A model generated the notes under the pieces. The model worked only from the letters and a program-made list of their open reading frames with translations. It did not search any database and was not told where the DNA came from. A stretch of DNA of 14,417 bases. It comes from Bacteroidota bacterium (GTDB lineage: Bacteria; Bacteroidota; Bacteroidia; Chitinophagales; Chitinophagaceae). The stretch spans positions 1 through 14,417 of the forward strand of contig JAEWWO010000129.1 in the NCBI GenBank assembly GCA_023396345.1. Reading direction: 5' to 3'. Positions 1,747 through 8,680 of the stretch are shown here, in pieces. Each line of letters opens with the position of its first letter. Position 1 is the stretch's first letter. The position numbers and the translations under genes were made by a program.

Positions 1747-2841
1747 TTATTTTTTTGCTGTTGCAGTGCTGTCAATTACTAACTCTGTAGCCACAGAATC
1801 GGCAAACTGTGCCGGCATATTGGTTTGAGTATCCGGGTCAGGATAGGCCAGCTTATAAGCCGGCGACATAGCTGCAATTTTTTCGTTGTATTCTTTTTCG
1901 TCTACAACCAAAATGGTTGCCTTCATGGAGTAGTGTCCATTTCCGCACATTTGGTCGCAGGCAATTTCGTAAGCAAAATTAGGATTGCCGGTTCTCACCT
2001 TCATCTCTTCCGTTGTGTATTTTGGTGTGAACCAAAGCGTGGTAGGCGTACCGGGAACAGCATCAGCCTTTAATCTGAAATGCGGTAAACCTACATTGTG
2101 TATTACATCTCTTGAACCAATGATGAATTTTACGGGTCTTCCTTTTATAATCATCATAGTACCTTCCACTACAATATCGTCCTGTGCGGCAGGATCGGCT
2201 TTCTGATTAAACTCTGCATTATCAGTCCAGTTAAGACCTAAAGAATTGGTTGCATCAATATTTTTAAAATATTTTTTACCAAATACATTATCCGCTCCCG
2301 GATAACGGATAATCCAGCCAAATTGTTTACCTGTAATTTCTACTTCCAGCGCACCTTTTGGCGCCTCACCGGTAAATAAAAACCAACTGCGTAAACCAAA
2401 GATTATCAATACGGTTAAAACAATTGTAGGAACTACTGTCCATATAATTTCCAGCTTATTGTTGTGCGGAAGAAACTTAATTTTACGATCTTCTTTGTAC
2501 TGGTATTTATAAGAAAACCAGAAAAGTAAAATCTGCGTAATCACAAATACAATCATACATATAATAGTAGTGATTATAAGCATGGAATCTACTCTTTCTC
2601 CTTCAATACTGGAAGAACCCTGAGCAAACAAAGTCTTATCATACAGCAACTTATGACAAGCATATACACCTATCAATCCTAAAACCAAGAAAGCAATCAT
2701 CAATTTTGCATTGACACGATTGCCGTCTCTGAAAGACTTTTCCTTTCCTCTTAAAATGGATACATATTCTCCTGCTTTTGCAATTTGAAAAATTACAAAA
2801 AACAACATTAAAATGGCGGTTACCGCAAGTAGAACTGACAT
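1747..2841 (-). CDS. coxB: Cytochrome c oxidase subunit II with CuA centre
   Basis: This subunit accepts electrons from cytochrome c, or directly from the ACIII haem c subunits, at a binuclear CuA site and passes them to subunit I. The protein has 364 residues. Hydrophobic segments lie near residues 3-21, 47-66, 87-110 and 132-156, two more than the two-helix textbook subunit II but seen in Bacteroidota homologues. The periplasmic cupredoxin domain carries the CuA ligands H248 (VIHNVGLPHF), C295, C299, H303 and M306 in CDQMCGNGHYSM. A complete CuA set argues for a cytochrome c oxidase rather than a quinol oxidase. No haem c motif follows the domain, so this is aa3-like in this subunit and not a fused caa3 subunit II. 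The upstream 5' region is AT-rich and no convincing promoter was recognised. coxA follows after 56 bp. Confidence 0.97.
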   Translation of the reverse strand: MSVLLAVTAILMLFFVIFQIAKAGEYVSILRGKEKSFRDGNRVNAKLMIAFLVLGLIGVYACHKLLYDKTLFAQGSSSIEGERVDSMLIITTIICMIVFVITQILLFWFSYKYQYKEDRKIKFLPHNNKLEIIWTVVPTIVLTVLIIFGLRSWFLFTGEAPKGALEVEITGKQFGWIIRYPGADNVFGKKYFKNIDATNSLGLNWTDNAEFNQKADPAAQDDIVVEGTMMIIKGRPVKFIIGSRDVIHNVGLPHFRLKADAVPGTPTTLWFTPKYTTEEMKVRTGNPNFAYEIACDQMCGNGHYSMKATILVVDEKEYNEKIAAMSPAYKLAYPDPDTQTNMPAQFADSVATELVIDSTATAKK

Positions 2842-3187
2842 ATATTATTTATCTCTTTTCTAAACGTTGTATTTAATAAATACCTTTTTATATTAAAATA
2901 TTACCAAACAATTTTATACATATATGATATTTTATAATAAAAGACTTACATCAGACAGTTTCATGACAAATATCATATTTTTGGTAAAGAAAAGAAAAAA
3001 TTGAATACAGAAGAAAAAAATTGTTATTTTTTTTATTAAAATTTTGAGTGTGCGGTCGTTTTTTATAGAAATAGAAAAGTGAGTATATTTGGTATTTTAA
3101 TAATGTTGACAGAATACAGTTTAAAATTTTAAATTTTCGGATATAAAAGCAACCCAAACACAACGCAACCCTTAATTTAATAAACCG
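2842..3187. other. AT-rich divergent spacer between coxB and the restriction-enzyme relic
   Basis: These 346 bp are strongly AT-rich and hold no gene I can support. The coxB promoter (minus strand) and the promoter of the former plus-strand restriction gene must lie here or be lost. On the minus strand I found no good match to the Bacteroidota -7 box TAnnTTTG. A 111-codon minus-strand open frame crosses this spacer, but its Phe/Tyr/Lys-rich product is what translated poly-A/T DNA gives, and it overlaps the relic. I treat it as non-coding. Confidence 0.6.
3106..3137 (+). promoter_or_regulatory. Possible Bacteroidota-type promoter of the relic
   Basis: A TTG at 3106-3108 is followed after 21 bp by TAAATTTT at 3130-3137. 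This approximates the Bacteroidota housekeeping promoter, which has TTG near -33 and TAnnTTTG near -7; the last base of the -7 box differs. It sits about 50 bp ahead of the ATG at 3188, in the right orientation. In DNA this AT-rich such matches occur by chance, so confidence is low. Confidence 0.25.
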
Positions 3188-3543
3188 ATGCAAAAACAGG
3201 TAGCACTTGACAAAATAAAATCGTTGGTAGAAAGATTTGACGAACAAAAAGAATTTTATAAACAAACTCAATACAATGAAACACAAACCAGACGCGATTT
3301 TATTGATCCGTTTTGGAAAGCCCTCGGTTGGGACATAGACAATTAGTTCAACAACAAAACGAAATTATCCAACTTGTTGACCAACTTTTACAACTCAATA
3401 AAGAGAAACAGCATACAACCTTGCCCGGTCAAAAAGAAATGATTGAAAACAGAATTGCCTACGCAGAAAATAAAATTAATCAAATTGTGTATAAATTGTA
3501 TGAGTTCACGGCGGAGGAAATTCAATTGATAGAAGGAAAATAA
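3188..3543 (+). pseudogene. Internally deleted type IIG (Eco57I-like) restriction-modification enzyme: N- and C-termini only
   Basis: The ATG at 3188 opens a 52-codon frame that stops at 3344-3346. It contains YNETQTRRDFIDPFW followed by KALGWDIDN, the characteristic N-terminal start of large single-chain type IIG restriction endonuclease/adenine methyltransferases. From about 3347, in another frame, the sequence reads QQQNEIIQLVDQLLQLNKE and ends KLYEFTAEEIQLIEGK with a stop at 3541-3543. That is the typical extreme C-terminus of the same family, after the target-recognition domain. Intact enzymes are roughly 1000 residues, so the nuclease remainder, the methyltransferase core (no NPPY or FxGxG motif is present) and the specificity domain are all missing. 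The two pieces meet between about 3343 and 3352 with a frame change, so no fused protein is made from the ATG. It is the only gene remnant on the plus strand. Family assignment rests on recognising both termini, not on a search. Confidence 0.85.
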
Positions 3544-3580
3544 CCCTTAAAAAACCTCAACAGGGATAAACGAAAAACAG

Positions 3581-3735
3581 AGATTGCTTCGTGTTTTCAA
3601 TGCTGCGCTTGAAAACCCTCGCAATAACGCTCTCCGTCTGTTCGTCATTTCCATGAGCGAGAACCTATCATAGGATTTATAATCCGTAATAACCCGGCCG
3701 TTGCACATTCTTCGCTACGCTACGTTCAGAACGAT
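3581..3735. repeat. Hairpin-rich intergenic repeat-like sequence
   Basis: This non-coding block lies between the relic and the GH130 gene. It starts with an imperfect hairpin. The outer arms are ATTGC (3583-3587) and GCAAT (3621-3625). The inner arms GTTTTCAA (3593-3600) and TTGAAAAC (3609-3616) are perfect, with an 8-nt loop. Further on are CCTATCATAGG, GGATTTATAATCC, and a TTCGCTACGCTACGTTCAG stretch. The block is more GC-rich than its flanks. Words such as GATTGCTTCG...TCGCAATAACG resemble dispersed palindromic intergenic repeats common in Bacteroidota; that resemblance is from memory. Only one copy lies in this window. It could also slow or end convergent transcripts, but no T-run follows closely. 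Confidence 0.55.
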
Positions 3736-3807
3736 AAATAAACAACATAACCTCATAACAACGTAACTTGATAACACCTAAACACCTACACAAATCAACA
3801 AATAAAC
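3736..3807. repeat. Nine degenerate 8-bp tandem units, consensus NNNATAAC
   Basis: Reading the plus strand in steps of eight from 3736 gives aaataaac, aacataac, ctcataac, aacgtaac, ttgataac, acctaaac, acctacac, aaatcaac, aaataaac. Every unit ends in AC and eight of nine end in AAC, while the first three bases vary freely. The array stops 2 bp before the GH130 stop codon (3810). On the GH130 transcript the unit reads GTTATNNN. No protein or RNA gene explains the period, and 8 is not a multiple of 3. A second copy of the same motif family lies at 10188-10219. Confidence 0.75.
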
Positions 3808-3809
3808 AT

Positions 3810-4778
3810 TTACAGCGAATCATTTTTTACAAAATCAAGAATCTCATCAATATACCCAAATGCCATGCAAACAGAGGTGTCTGCCGCACCGTAATATACT
3901 GCTACTTTTTCTCCGTCTTCCAATGCTGCACAGGGAAACACTACATTTGGCACATCGCCCGCCAATTCATAAGGAGCTGCGGGTGCCAGTAAATAAGGTT
4001 TGCTTCTGTATAATACTTTTTCAGGATTATCTTTGTCTAAAACAGCAGCACCCATAGAATAACGAAAACCATTAGCAGTATTGATAACGCCATGATAAAA
4101 CATTAACCAGCCGTCTTTTGTGAGAAAGGGTACGGTACCCGCTCCAATCTTGGTACATTGCCAGGCACTTTGATCAAACGGAGCTACTTTCATTAGGCAG
4201 CGGTGTTCGCCCCAATATTTCATGTCAGGACTAAAGCTGATATAGATATCTCCAAAAGGCGTATGACCATTATCACTCGGACGACTTAGCATGGCGTATC
4301 TGCCATTGAATTTTTGTGGAAACAATACCCCGTTTCTGTTGAAAGGTAAAAAGGCATTTTCGCACTGAAAAAATTCTTTGAAATCAAATGTGTAGGCAAT
4401 CCCTATAGTTGGTCCGTGATAACCATTGCACCAGGTAACCCAATAGCGGTCTTCAATAAATGTTACACGCGGATCGTATTTGTAAGCAGATTCTATCATT
4501 TCTGTATTTCCTGCCTGCATTACTATAGGTTCATGGTTGATATCCCAGTTGATACCATCTTTGCTGAAACCCGCAAAGATATTCATTTGTACAGCTTTGT
4601 TGTCGCAACGGAACACACCTGCAAAACCATCTTCAAAAGGCACAACCGCACTGTTGAAAATACTGTTGGATGTAGGTATATGATATCTGTCAATTACAGG
4701 ATTGTTGCTATTGCGCCACATTACATCGTTGCTGTCTGCTGGTCTGTCCTGCCAGGGAATGGTAATTTTATTTGTCAT
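3810..4778 (-). CDS. GH130 family beta-mannoside phosphorylase
   Basis: GH130 enzymes phosphorolyse beta-1,4- or beta-1,2-linked mannosides to mannose 1-phosphate and a shortened sugar. This 322-residue protein has the five-bladed propeller pattern of the family and no signal peptide, so it should act in the cytoplasm. The candidate proton donor is D102 in YDPRVTF. Likely phosphate-binding residues are R57 (FRCDN), R166 (LSRPSD), K210 (CTKIGAG) and H229 (FYHGV). Retention of this basic set suggests a phosphorylase rather than a GH130 hydrolase. The substrate cannot be fixed from sequence; overall it resembles the subgroup that includes mannosyl-beta-1,4-GlcNAc and mannooligosaccharide phosphorylases. 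It follows the MFS carrier by 14 bp and the NagX-like gene further upstream, which favours a GlcNAc-containing disaccharide imported intact. The family is confident; the substrate is inference. Confidence 0.92.
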
Positions 4779-4792
4779 TATTATAATATATT

Positions 4793-6154
4793 TTAATTAG
4801 ATTTTGTGTCATCGTAAGTAAAAGGAACGAAATACGTAATCAATAAAGCCGGGATAGTACATAAGATTACAAAAATAAAAAAAAGTTCATATCCCCATAA
4901 ACCATCGAGCGATGGAATAAGTGAAGAAAGATTTATTTTTTTGAGCAGTTCTATCTGAGAAGATTCAGTACTAAGATATCCACTAATGTAACCCGGAATA
5001 AGTACTCCTAAATTCATAATACTGTTTGCAAAAGCATAATGCGTCATCTGATGTTTTCCCGGAGCTATTTGCTGCATCATAAATAAAATAAGCCCTACAA
5101 ATCCAAAGCCGTATCCAAAATATTCAAATACAATTCCCGAAGCTATAAGCCAGATACTTTGTGGCTGAAAAATTGCAAAAAACAGATATACTGCAAATGG
5201 GATATTAAAGCATAAGGCTAATATGAATAATGTTTTCTTGAGTCCCCACTTAGAAACAAAGTGTCCTGCAGCAATGGAACCTCCTATAAAAGCTAATGCT
5301 CCAAACGTGCCATATACCAATCCATATTGTTCATTACTCAACCCTAAACCTCCTGCACTTATGTCGTCTTTCAGAAACAGGGGAACAATCTTCATTGTCA
5401 GCCCTTCTGCAAAACGATAAAGAATAATGAAAAATAAATAATAGAGGATATATTTCTTAGTGAAAAAACCTAAAAATACAGTAAGTAATTCCTTTAATTT
5501 ATCACCTAACTTTCCGGATTGTTCTTTCTTTACATCCTTAGGAAGAAAAAACAGATGATAGATGGCAAGCCCCAGCATAATTATACCGCTGACAGCCATT
5601 ATAATCTGCCAGGACTGTGCAACAGTAAAGTCGAGCTTTGACGTTAACCATCCTGCTAAAAAGACAAGACCTCCGTTTGCAAGCACTTTTGCCATATTAT
5701 AAAAGGCTCCCTGCCATCCGGAAAATTTGCTCTGTGTGTCTGTATCCAACTGCTCCATATACACGCCATCTCCTGCAATGTCATGAACCGAACCACTTAT
5801 TGCAATAACAAACATCAATCCTATTGCTATCATAAAAAAATCAGGAACAGGAAGACTTACTACTATTGCACCAAACATAAGCGCACTAACTATTTCTGTA
5901 ATTATCAAATAACTTCTTTTGGTTCCAAATATCTCCATAAAAGGACTAAACAGCGGTTTCAAAGACCAGGGAATAACAAGCAGTGAAGTATATTTTGCAA
6001 TTTCTATATTACTTATACCTAAATCCTTGAACATTATAACAGAAACAAGAGAAAGAGCAATGTAGGGAAATCCCATTGCAAAGTAAACTGTTGGTATCCA
6101 CCTGAGCGGATTTTTATTTGACTTTGATTTTATCGTTTGTGAAGATTTTTCCAT
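4793..6154 (-). CDS. MFS transporter, AmpG-like
   Basis: This 453-residue inner-membrane carrier has about 12 hydrophobic segments. It starts with a short polar N-terminus (to residue 16) and then [18 protein letters not shown], with [20 protein letters not shown] near residues 60-80. That layout resembles AmpG-type permeases of the major facilitator superfamily, which bring GlcNAc-anhydromuropeptides into the cytoplasm. A polar loop rich in Lys ([15 protein letters not shown], about 209-223) separates the two six-helix halves. It lies 75 bp after the acyltransferase and 14 bp before the GH130 phosphorylase, so cotranslation or co-regulation is likely. The context suggests it imports a mannose- or GlcNAc-containing disaccharide for phosphorolysis. 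A true AmpG role in cell-wall recycling is the main alternative, but no recycling gene is nearby. MFS membership is certain; the cargo is inferred. Confidence 0.9.
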
Positions 6155-6175
6155 GAACTTGAATAGTTGAATTTC

Positions 6176-6227
6176 GATGGTGAAATTAATCTTTTAGCAA
6201 AAGAAAAGGAAATATTAATTTACCATC
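6176..6227. repeat. Inverted repeat in the spacer between the NagX-like and MFS genes
   Basis: The left arm GATGGTGAAATTAAT (6176-6190) pairs with the right arm ATTAATTTACCATC (6214-6227), leaving one bulged G and a 23-nt purine-rich loop. It fills most of the 75-bp spacer and starts 3 bp from the NagX-like stop codon. No T-run follows on the minus strand, so it is not a standard terminator. It could be an mRNA stem-loop that protects or processes the message, or split half-sites for a regulator. Confidence 0.5.
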
Positions 6228-6229
6228 AT

Positions 6230-7372
6230 CTATAATTTAAAGAATATTTTTTTCTTGTATAACCAGTAACAAATATACCATTCAATCAATAAAACAATAA
6301 GAGCCGTTATCAGCAACATCAGGTTTTCAGGAATACCCAAAAAGCTCATTAAACCATTGGTAAACACTCCTACAGCACCGTTGAACCACATAACTCCTAC
6401 AGTTTGAAAAAACATATAAATAAATATAGAGTTCATGCCTACCACTATGCAGATCCATGCATATTTATTGTATTTTAAAATATCCGTAATCCAGTACAGG
6501 AGTGCCAGTATTAATAACACCCAACCTCCTGAAGCTAACACAAACGACGATGTACTTATTCTTTTTATTATGGGTGTAATGTTGGCAATATCCATTCCAT
6601 AGCCTGCAACCAGACCTGCAATACCTGCAACTAACAGCCATTTTATTTTGCTGAATTCCGGTCGGTTCTCTATCAATAATTTTCCTGCCATTGCGCCCCA
6701 GATAGTGTGTGCTGCCGTTGGAATAATGTTGATTGCAACCCATCCGTCTCCGTTGATTTTACCCATCAATATCATGTCCATCCAGGTGCCAAAATTTTGG
6801 CCCATAACAAAGGGCTGGTCATAACCGGGCAAGGAAAAAGTTCTGTATAATACTTCCGTTAAAACCAAAAGCAGAATAGATACAACAAACTGCAATAAGT
6901 AAGATTTTTGAATAATTAAATAAGCAATAATGGTTGTAACTGCCAGTTGCGTTAATATATTCCACAGCTCCCACACAGGCTTTCCTGCATGCAGGCAATG
7001 AATAACTATTCCCAGAAAAAAAAGCTTTACACATCGTATAAAAATATGTTTGAAATTCTGCGACCAGCTTATTCCTTTTTTTGTTTTGTAATAATAAGAA
7101 ATATACATGGCAGAGCCTGCCATCAGCATAAATGCGGGTTGTATTAAATCCCAGAAGTACAAGCCGTTCCATGGGTGATGGTTAAACTGCTCTACAATTT
7201 TTTCTCCAAAGCCTGAAAAATTAAAATTCCTTAGAGCAATGTACACTCTGCTGCTTTCGGCTGCAAGCAATATCATTATCAAACCACGCATTACATCTAA
7301 AGATGCGAGACGCTGTGGTTTGTTTTCAACAGGAAGTGAATTATTCATAATTATTACGCATGTAAAATTCAT
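6230..7372 (-). CDS. NagX/HGSNAT-like membrane acyltransferase (DUF5009-like)
   Basis: This polytopic membrane protein has about ten hydrophobic segments. The hallmark LASLDVMRGLIMILL at residues 22-36 and NHHPWNGLYFWDLIQPAFM at 64-82 match the family of heparan-alpha-glucosaminide N-acetyltransferase and bacterial NagX proteins. HGSNAT transfers an acetyl group from cytosolic acetyl-CoA to glucosamine on the other side of the membrane. Bacterial members occur in N-acetylglucosamine and N-glycan use clusters, but their reaction is not settled. The frame can start at 7372 (380 residues) or at Met9 (7348, 372 residues); the second begins MNNSLPVENKPQRLASLD and is more like family N-termini, so I favour 7348. 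Neither start has a Shine-Dalgarno site. It is the first gene of the cassette, just after the act terminator. Related acyltransferase-3 proteins are a less likely alternative. Confidence 0.85.
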   Translation of the reverse strand: MNFTCVIIMNNSLPVENKPQRLASLDVMRGLIMILLAAESSRVYIALRNFNFSGFGEKIVEQFNHHPWNGLYFWDLIQPAFMLMAGSAMYISYYYKTKKGISWSQNFKHIFIRCVKLFFLGIVIHCLHAGKPVWELWNILTQLAVTTIIAYLIIQKSYLLQFVVSILLLVLTEVLYRTFSLPGYDQPFVMGQNFGTWMDMILMGKINGDGWVAINIIPTAAHTIWGAMAGKLLIENRPEFSKIKWLLVAGIAGLVAGYGMDIANITPIIKRISTSSFVLASGGWVLLILALLYWITDILKYNKYAWICIVVGMNSIFIYMFFQTVGVMWFNGAVGVFTNGLMSFLGIPENLMLLITALIVLLIEWYICYWLYKKKIFFKL

Positions 7373-7404
7373 ATAAAGTTACTCATTCTGCAATTCAGAA
7401 ACAG

Positions 7405-7433
7405 AAAAAAGGTACAGTAAAGTTTACCGTACC
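7405..7433 (-). terminator. Intrinsic terminator of the act operon
   Basis: On the minus strand GGTACGGTAAAC is followed by TTTACTGTACC and then six T residues (7410-7405). The 11-bp arms pair fully in RNA through one G-U wobble; on the plus strand the same position is an A-C mismatch, so the signal is directional. The hairpin begins about 26 bp after the actF stop codon. It separates the respiratory genes from the sugar cassette, which must therefore have its own promoter in the roughly 60 bp before 7348, or depend on read-through. Confidence 0.88.
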
Positions 7434-7459
7434 TTAAATTATATTTCAATAAACAAATA

Positions 7460-8680
7460 TTACGTATGGTGTATAATACTCTCTTTTAAGAATGGATGAT
7501 ATTTTGGAACCAAAGGTTTCGATGCAAGGAACTTTCCTACAAAGAAAATAATTAATCCAACAAAAATAGCGGCAATACCAAAATCCCACCAGCCGATGGT
7601 TACATGATCTTTGCTGATGCTTGCCATAATCATCTGATAAAAATCTAACCAGTGACCAAAGATGATTAATACTGCCATAAAGGTCATGATTGTGTAGTTT
7701 CTTTTAGAGTCTCTGGTCATCAAAATTAAAATCGGACAAACAAAGTTGATAATAAGATTGATGTAGAAAATTCCTCTGTATGGCCCCTGTACTCTGTGTT
7801 TGAAATAAACTGTTTCTTCCGGAATGTTGGCATACCATATCAGCATATACTGAGAAAACCATACATAGGTCCAGAAAATAGAGAACGCAAACATAAACTT
7901 ACCTAAATCGTGCAGATGCTCCTGATTGGTTAGTTCAAGATAGCCTTTGTTTTTAAGATAAATTACAAAAAGTACTATCAAAGCTATTCCGGCTACAAAG
8001 CTGCTGATAAATGTGTACCAGCTGTACATGGTAGAATACCAGTGGGAATCAATACTCATTTGCCATAACCATGGCGTAACAGAACCTGCGGTTAATGCAA
8101 ACCATACTAAGAACAAAGAAGCGTTTACGGTACTTTTGTATATATATCTTCTGCCCTCTTCTTTAGTCATTTTTTCATTATCAGTCTGGTCAATTGTTTT
8201 ACGCATTCTGTATCCTAAAAACGCCCATAAAACTACAGTGAGAATAGACCATATAACAAACATAGGAATATTTAAGAATCCTACTTTATGCTGAAGAATG
8301 GTGTCATGTGCTACGGCAGCAGGATCGTTCCAGTGATAAATGTGACTGCCTGAGAATATTAAATACAACAATACAATCAGCAAAATTGTACCGAAAATGG
8401 GAACCATTCTGGAAATTGCATCAGCCACTCTTATAAATACTATCTGCCATCCGCCCATTGCCAGCGTACATACGCAAATAAAGAACATAGCCGCATTACA
8501 GATTAATGTAAAGTAAATACTGTTGTACAATAATGTTCCCCAGAATATATCGCCTGCGTGGTCGTCACCTGAATGGGTAAAAAATCCTATAATGGTAAAT
8601 AAAATTCCCAATCCCAGCACACCAAATGCCCAAGTTTTCATTTTTCCGGGAACTTCAAATTGTGTTTTAATAGATGCCAT
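7460..8680 (-). CDS. actF: Alternative complex III subunit ActF
   Basis: ActF is one of the two large integral membrane subunits of ACIII and shares its fold with ActC (NrfD/PsrC-like helices). It carries no redox cofactor and is thought to help proton movement or complex stability. The 406-residue product has about ten membrane segments, a soluble N-terminus with FEVPGKMKTWAFG, and the segment FWTYVWFSQYMLIWYANIPE near residues 270-289, typical of the family. RVQGPYRGIFYIN and HWLDFYQMIM follow. It ends SIIHHT. It starts 57 bp after actE and is the last gene before the operon terminator. The position and motifs leave little doubt. Confidence 0.95.
   Translation of the reverse strand: MASIKTQFEVPGKMKTWAFGVLGLGILFTIIGFFTHSGDDHAGDIFWGTLLYNSIYFTLICNAAMFFICVCTLAMGGWQIVFIRVADAISRMVPIFGTILLIVLLYLIFSGSHIYHWNDPAAVAHDTILQHKVGFLNIPMFVIWSILTVVLWAFLGYRMRKTIDQTDNEKMTKEEGRRYIYKSTVNASLFLVWFALTAGSVTPWLWQMSIDSHWYSTMYSWYTFISSFVAGIALIVLFVIYLKNKGYLELTNQEHLHDLGKFMFAFSIFWTYVWFSQYMLIWYANIPEETVYFKHRVQGPYRGIFYINLIINFVCPILILMTRDSKRNYTIMTFMAVLIIFGHWLDFYQMIMASISKDHVTIGWWDFGIAAIFVGLIIFFVGKFLASKPLVPKYHPFLKESIIHHT

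Follow-up and report, generated by a model that had tools for sequence, protein, structure and literature searches.

Two ends of one type IIG-like gene

A 14,417-nucleotide stretch of a Bacteroidota contig (the window, here always the whole stretch) holds two short pieces of a restriction-modification gene lying end to end, which raises the question of what removed the rest and whether what is left can still act. Type IIG-like enzymes combine nuclease, N6-adenine methylase and target-recognition domains in one polypeptide. We consider it very probable (roughly 0.88) that the locus is a dead remnant of a type IIG-like restriction-modification gene, its ends joined out of frame by a single internal deletion. 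This deletion, of about 2.4–2.7 kb, would have removed everything between approximately residue 53 and a point some 64 residues short of the C terminus, and joining the ends out of frame would make the N-terminal frame stop right at the joint. From the comparisons below we infer one event, no residual function and neutral drift since.

Table 1. Coordinates of the relic and of its surroundings in the window.
Feature	Position	Strand	Basis
First 52 codons of a restriction-modification gene of type IIG-like kind (N piece)	3188..3343	+	PDLC03604, positions 8–52 of 1011
Joint: TAG stop plus two bases	3344..3348	+	N homology to 3343, C homology from 3347–3350
About 64 final codons plus stop of a type IIG-like gene, in another frame (C piece)	~3349..3543	+	PDLC03604, positions 945–1001 of 1011
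76-codon open frame across the joint	3313..3543	+	P0001 95% identical, joint common to both
Insertion of 4,618 bases between two respiratory genes	2842..7459	.	genes at most 346 bases apart in 79/79 relatives
Cytochrome oxidase subunit II gene	1747–2841		
ActF-like gene	7460–8680		no Pfam or NCBIfam match

The N piece opens with an ATG at 3188 and closes with a TAG stop at 3344–3346, and the C piece, read in a different frame, closes with a TAA stop at 3541–3543. Both are free of stops except at the joint and align without gaps to intact relatives. Against the PADLOC type IIG model PDLC03604, the N piece matched near the start (E 9e-15) and the C piece near the end (E 1.1e-4); the C piece also reached the very end of a second model, PDLC03612 (positions 1196–1246 of 1247, E 5.8e-7). 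Judged by E-values, order, strand and spacing, the match of the pieces is far above chance. Pfam returned sub-cut-off matches only, to HSDR_N for the N piece and to Mrr_N for the C piece, and the window contained no Rfam match and no tRNA genes.

In DNA comparisons (blastn) the N match to most close relatives stops at 3342–3343. The C match sets in at 3347 (L103), 3349 (L109) or 3350 (L104 and L105), or later in others; by protein comparison, C homology begins at 3349. We therefore placed the joint at about 3344–3348, bases that can be assigned to neither gene end. A preliminary description of this DNA had put a frame change at 3343–3352, and the joint falls inside that interval with the pieces in different frames.

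For comparison we assembled 41 full-length or nearly full-length reference proteins: 11 genes taken from a genome search with the N piece (which matched 25 of the 394 genomes of the family of G002), 29 matches from a protein search that used the C-terminal part of P0047 as query, and P0047 itself. The set includes near-identical entries, and P0047 and P0048 equal L104. The pieces matched opposite ends of 39 of the 41, the N match lying within residues 1–61 and the C match ending at most 5 residues from the C terminus; P0060 and P0064 were matched by the C piece only. The relic is colinear with both ends of single homologues in these 39, as expected of two ends of one type IIG-like gene, and the halves led to one enzyme family and not to unrelated ones, which bears out the preliminary description. 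At the protein level the N piece is 80–87% identical to the N termini of its closest full-length relatives and the C piece 66–73%; the highest value for the C piece belongs to the last 64 residues of P0052, its best relative (N 84%, C 73%), followed by P0053, P0049 and L104. The closest intact relatives by DNA (L102–L105 and L108) are 81–83% identical for the N piece and 67–77% for the C piece.

About 868 codons are missing by comparison with P0052, 890 with L104 and 809 with P0063, so that the lost stretch measures about 810–890 codons (2.4–2.7 kb): nearly the whole gene, as the preliminary description held, if slightly less than its 3 kb. In L104 the PD..EAK motif (78 and 94, spanning 78–96), which we take to be the nuclease motif, DPACGSG (401) and NPPY (609) all fall in the missing part, and the two intact relatives that we checked, P0047 and P0052, carry HSDR_N, N6_Mtase, Eco57I and TaqI_C. 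The type IIG label comes from PADLOC (P0047, E 6.6e-186); the best NCBIfam match of P0047 is the BREX methylase PglX, far below cut-off, and PglX is also the name that some relatives carry in their source. Both ends of such a type IIG enzyme (PDLC03604; for example P0052 or P0047/L104) align to the relic without gaps, whereas the relic has no nuclease, methylase or specificity domain and its ends are out of frame. Residues 1–52 are all that is left at the N end, without the PD-(D/E)XK nuclease domain; the N6-adenine methylase motif I and NPPY both lie within the missing part; and the continuous reading frame of a functional type IIG enzyme is interrupted by the TAG at 3344–3346, with the C piece out of frame.

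An insertion in a respiratory gene cluster

The relic sits in an insertion that interrupts a cluster of respiratory genes (alternative complex III / cytochrome oxidase). We compared the best 80 of 209 matches to the cytochrome oxidase subunit II gene on one side. The gene on the other side, presumably ActF-like to go by its position and size, was also present in 79 of these 80 loci (Table 1); one locus, L012, begins at a contig end. None of the best 80 loci, the closest of which has an oxidase subunit II 66% identical to that of the window (the best match in the genome collection), carries a type IIG gene at the insertion site, matches there being at chance level.

Besides the relic on the plus strand, the insertion contains NagX-like, MFS (AmpG-like) and GH130 genes on the minus strand, the NagX-like and AmpG-like labels both lying below NCBIfam cut-offs. 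GH130 (E 1e-60) was found in only 3 of the 394 genomes of the family of G001, where it is 78–85% identical over its whole length, versus only 52–59% for the cytochrome oxidase subunit II of the same three genomes. Because GH130 is rare and so much more similar than the oxidase, we infer that the insertion was probably acquired horizontally, and the relic may once have been part of the acquired insert. Just beyond the relic, a non-coding stretch at 3570–3740 contains GATTGCTTCG-type words that perhaps resemble dispersed repeats; those examined are present once each in the window and 0–5 times in the compared loci.

The same joint in a second sequence and the age of the loss

A search with the 76-codon frame that crosses the joint returned 4 matches among 5.8 billion proteins. 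The best, P0001, has 76 residues and is 95% identical to the window's frame over 100% of its length, with four amino-acid differences; it stands for a cluster with 5 members (source 'lgn') and is encoded on a contig of 82,742 bases. Over its first 19 residues it is identical to the window's frame, and the first ten of these are the N piece read out of frame. The other three matches (P0002–P0004) are, by eye, C ends of other genes. The 52-residue N stub itself, P0005, is listed in 5 contigs, one of which may be the window's own record and the longest of which measures 82,742 bases. The joint is thus found in more than one sequence, P0001 and P0005. It is clear from its differences that P0001 is not the window's sequence, though it perhaps does not represent an independent sample or assembler.

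These matches bear on the rival that the preliminary description had named, an assembly collapse in which an intact gene is present in the genome and its ends were joined by the assembler. The type IIG-like family has up to three copies per genome, which can mislead assemblers. Yet P0001 has the identical joint despite four amino-acid differences in 76, and P0005 recurs in several contigs, so that collapse at one identical base would be needed in contigs of different sequence variants. With a diverged variant carrying the same joint on another contig, we regard a collapse as unlikely.

Because P0001 carries the identical joint, the loss would be older than the split between the window and P0001. 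We examined where the two differ against 39 relatives (P0047 and P0048 left out, some near-identical entries still in). The window has F where all 39 relatives and P0001 have L, and Q where 34 of 39 have K; P0001 has F where 38 of 39 have I or L; and at the fourth position the K of the window is rare (2/39) and the I of P0001 common (13/39). Each lineage has changed at conserved positions, and thus both seem to have drifted after the deletion. Rare residues in the relic (3 in the N piece, 9 in the C piece) lie within the ranges of intact genes (0–16 and 2–28, respectively; 29 references for N and 33 for C after removal of near-identical entries). The dN of the relic shows no excess over intact genes, so decay is invisible at this distance, and dS is mostly saturated, which makes a dN/dS test of decay uninformative. 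The age that these comparisons suggest is only relative: the loss appears young beside the divergence of the compared relatives and older than the P0001 split. The word 'recent' in the preliminary description therefore fits the lack of excess amino-acid change, but the loss would predate the split from P0001, and conserved positions have changed since.

Similar deletions elsewhere in the family

We searched for other broken genes of this kind by N-terminal scans with the N piece (E 1e-3) and with a profile of 12 sequences, A1 (E 1e-4, 1e-8 and 1e-6). Six scans gave 141 rows; after 14 rows of the E 1e-8 scans that repeated places from an E 1e-4 scan were dropped, the rest merged into 119 places in 97 genomes, counts that are lower bounds because some candidates were unscored in some genomes in the scans at E 1e-4 and 1e-6. 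Open frames of at least 850 codons account for 88 of the 119 places, classed by frame size. Of the 31 others, 16 run into or sit close to a contig end, those in G954, G1242, G1310, G1233, G1375 and (twice) G1278 being judged from coordinates and contig size alone; the contig-end case in G402 may also have an inner stop. Four match divergent proteins only weakly (L149, L161, L162 and L165), and five keep all or nearly all of their length but have frameshifts (L117, L152, L154, L155 and L172). L156 is an N stub that reaches residue 107 and contains frameshifts, for which a C end was looked for and not found, and L150 shows homology to residue 342 followed by other DNA on a small contig. Genome G1020 has three copies of one IIG 5' end (L150 and L151, on G1020:C14 and C60, and one on G1020:C7), two of them on small contigs; they could be recombining copies or assembly fragments.

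The remaining four of the 31, from at least 119 N-terminal matches scanned, have large internal deletions. In L148, the strongest two-ended case, residues 3–41 are followed in another frame by the last 47 (C-profile E 2e-18). L171 fuses roughly the first 56 residues (matched at about 10–55) to about the last 40 (C-profile E 2e-8); its open frame of 94 codons lies at 4468–4187 (minus strand) and gives about 90 residues from the first ATG. L147 (4670–3362, minus strand) breaks off near residue 39 as judged by eye (at 47 by tblastn) and resumes at residue 593 to the end, in frame; the part with the nuclease and the SAM-binding motif is gone and the NPPY motif region is kept, the rest being further broken. 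L116, the weakest two-ended case, retains residues 2–67 and roughly the final 15, which lie in another frame. Its tail was missed by C-terminal profiles of the last 62 and 21 residues and found by a 13-residue profile, for which chance alone would give 1.7e-4 matches per 100 bases of a single strand, a favourable figure because the shorter profile was chosen after the tail had been seen. L116, L148 and L171 belong to the same family as the window relic, with deletions that run from residue 41–67 to the last 15–47. Because their break points differ from each other and from those of the window, we take these three and the window's as separate events, five with L147.

The same survey bears on stepwise decay, in which multiple deletions and frameshifts would have eroded the window gene down to its ends. 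Early stages of such decay do exist in the family, since five of the ten broken genes, contig-end cases aside, are full-length or nearly so with frameshifts, yet both pieces in the window are stop-free outside the joint and gap-free against intact relatives, and we think such a history improbable here. A single deletion, the preliminary description's proposal, is the simplest reading, though a more complex event is possible, with bases 3344–3348 assigned to neither end.

A surviving piece might also be functional, as an N-terminal peptide or, by way of frameshifting, as a mini-protein that runs from end to end. L171 could make such an end-to-end protein with its in-frame fusion of 94 codons, and several contigs longer than 20 kb have N stubs listed in them. 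In the window, by contrast, the two ends lie in different frames, changes have occurred at conserved positions and no slippery site is evident by eye, and function of this kind seems very improbable.

The 5' breaks of all four deletions and of the window (residue 52) fall at residues 39–67, before the PD..EAK motif at 78–96. Under a random-break model the chance of a 5' break at or before 67, given one at or after 39, is about 0.064, and that of four out of four 1.7e-5; this clustering is a lead and not a test, the limit of 67 being derived from the data, the cases four and the uniform model crude. It is not easily a search artefact: longer stubs are easier to find, and stubs below about residue 39 would be missed. 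P0033, a 46-residue N stub ending in ...DFIDPF plus four residues and listed in 15 contigs, is possibly another early-break relic. At the C end, only about the last 15–64 residues are left in four of the five cases (the window, L116, L148 and L171).

Why the ends stay

We considered three ideas for why the ends are spared: (a) a deletion would be tolerated best if it removed the nuclease and did not reach the neighbours; (b) a downstream gene would need the upstream promoter and coupling; or (c) sequence repeats at both ends would promote the loss. We tentatively favour idea (a).

For idea (b), an open frame begins 14, 6 and 12 bases past the relic end (set by eye) in L116, L148 and L171, respectively, and 1 of 11 intact genes has a downstream open frame within 50 bases. 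The window relic differs from these three in having no such frame and L147 has no such close downstream gene, so downstream coupling cannot be the whole reason. In L148 the gene directly after the relic (4116–2662, minus strand) encodes a Schlafen AlbA_2 protein (AlbA_2/HATPase_c_4), for which the top PADLOC model, labelled pAgo, is matched only in part (positions 27–459 of 1121). The 353-aa open frame downstream of L171 had no Pfam (E 0.01) or PADLOC (E 0.001) match, and that downstream of L116 no Pfam match.

Idea (c), a repeat built into the gene ends, was an early one and was dropped. When the first and last 260 bases of 11 intact genes were compared, with interior windows as controls, the longest exact repeats were 7–11 bases and never above the controls; the highest, 11 bases in L104, was equalled by 3 of 21 interior windows. 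The ends of these intact relatives thus hold no unusual repeats of the short direct kind that the preliminary description had proposed to look for, and idea (c) is unsupported. Within 2842–3809 a repeat search found short two-copy pairs only, none bracketing the joint convincingly, although one pair (3265–3283 / 3392–3410) has a copy on each side of it.

We also rejected a mobile-element derivative that would have kept its ends for movement, there being no conserved DNA outside the coding ends. The flanks at 2842–3187 and 3544–3809 had no blastn match at E 0.01 to loci that included 11 intact genes with flanks and the relic L116 (L147, L148 and L171 left out); with the low-complexity filter switched off, a single weak match to 3544–3809 came up (E 0.11). 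A search of viral contigs for the exact joint pattern found none, an N-profile scan of viral contigs gave two loci, each a full-length gene, and phage (2) and plasmid (33) records gave N-piece matches only, each below 60% identity.

Truncated or corrupted restriction-modification genes have been catalogued before, in a survey of solitary restriction enzymes of Types I–III and of frameshifted or truncated partners (PMC3488263). Like the window relic, these are loss-of-function restriction-modification genes left in genomes, many of them ascribed there to genome rearrangements; the portion of the survey's text considered here mentions no two-ended genes. Two-ended loss of type IIG genes did not appear among the titles and abstract openings of our literature search, which is no proof of absence.

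A lone relic of a restriction gene is ordinary, and it is the recurrence of end-sparing deletions that deserves attention. Such deletions may persist because they do away with the nuclease and with the burden of a large dead gene, yet leave the promoter region and the neighbours untouched. The selected loss of a toxic core that the preliminary description proposed is a candidate reading that would fit the four other deletions, all of which remove the nuclease motif. That end-sparing internal deletion is a repeated route by which Bacteroidota lose type IIG-like genes, maybe a selected one-step disarming that keeps promoter, downstream genes and neighbours, is a tentative idea that we hold possible but doubtful. 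If it is a rule for single-chain restriction enzymes, it would show how bacteria discard a gene able to kill them. It would also leave a countable signature, two short ends with a joint before the nuclease motif, from which the frequency of gain and loss of restriction systems could be measured.
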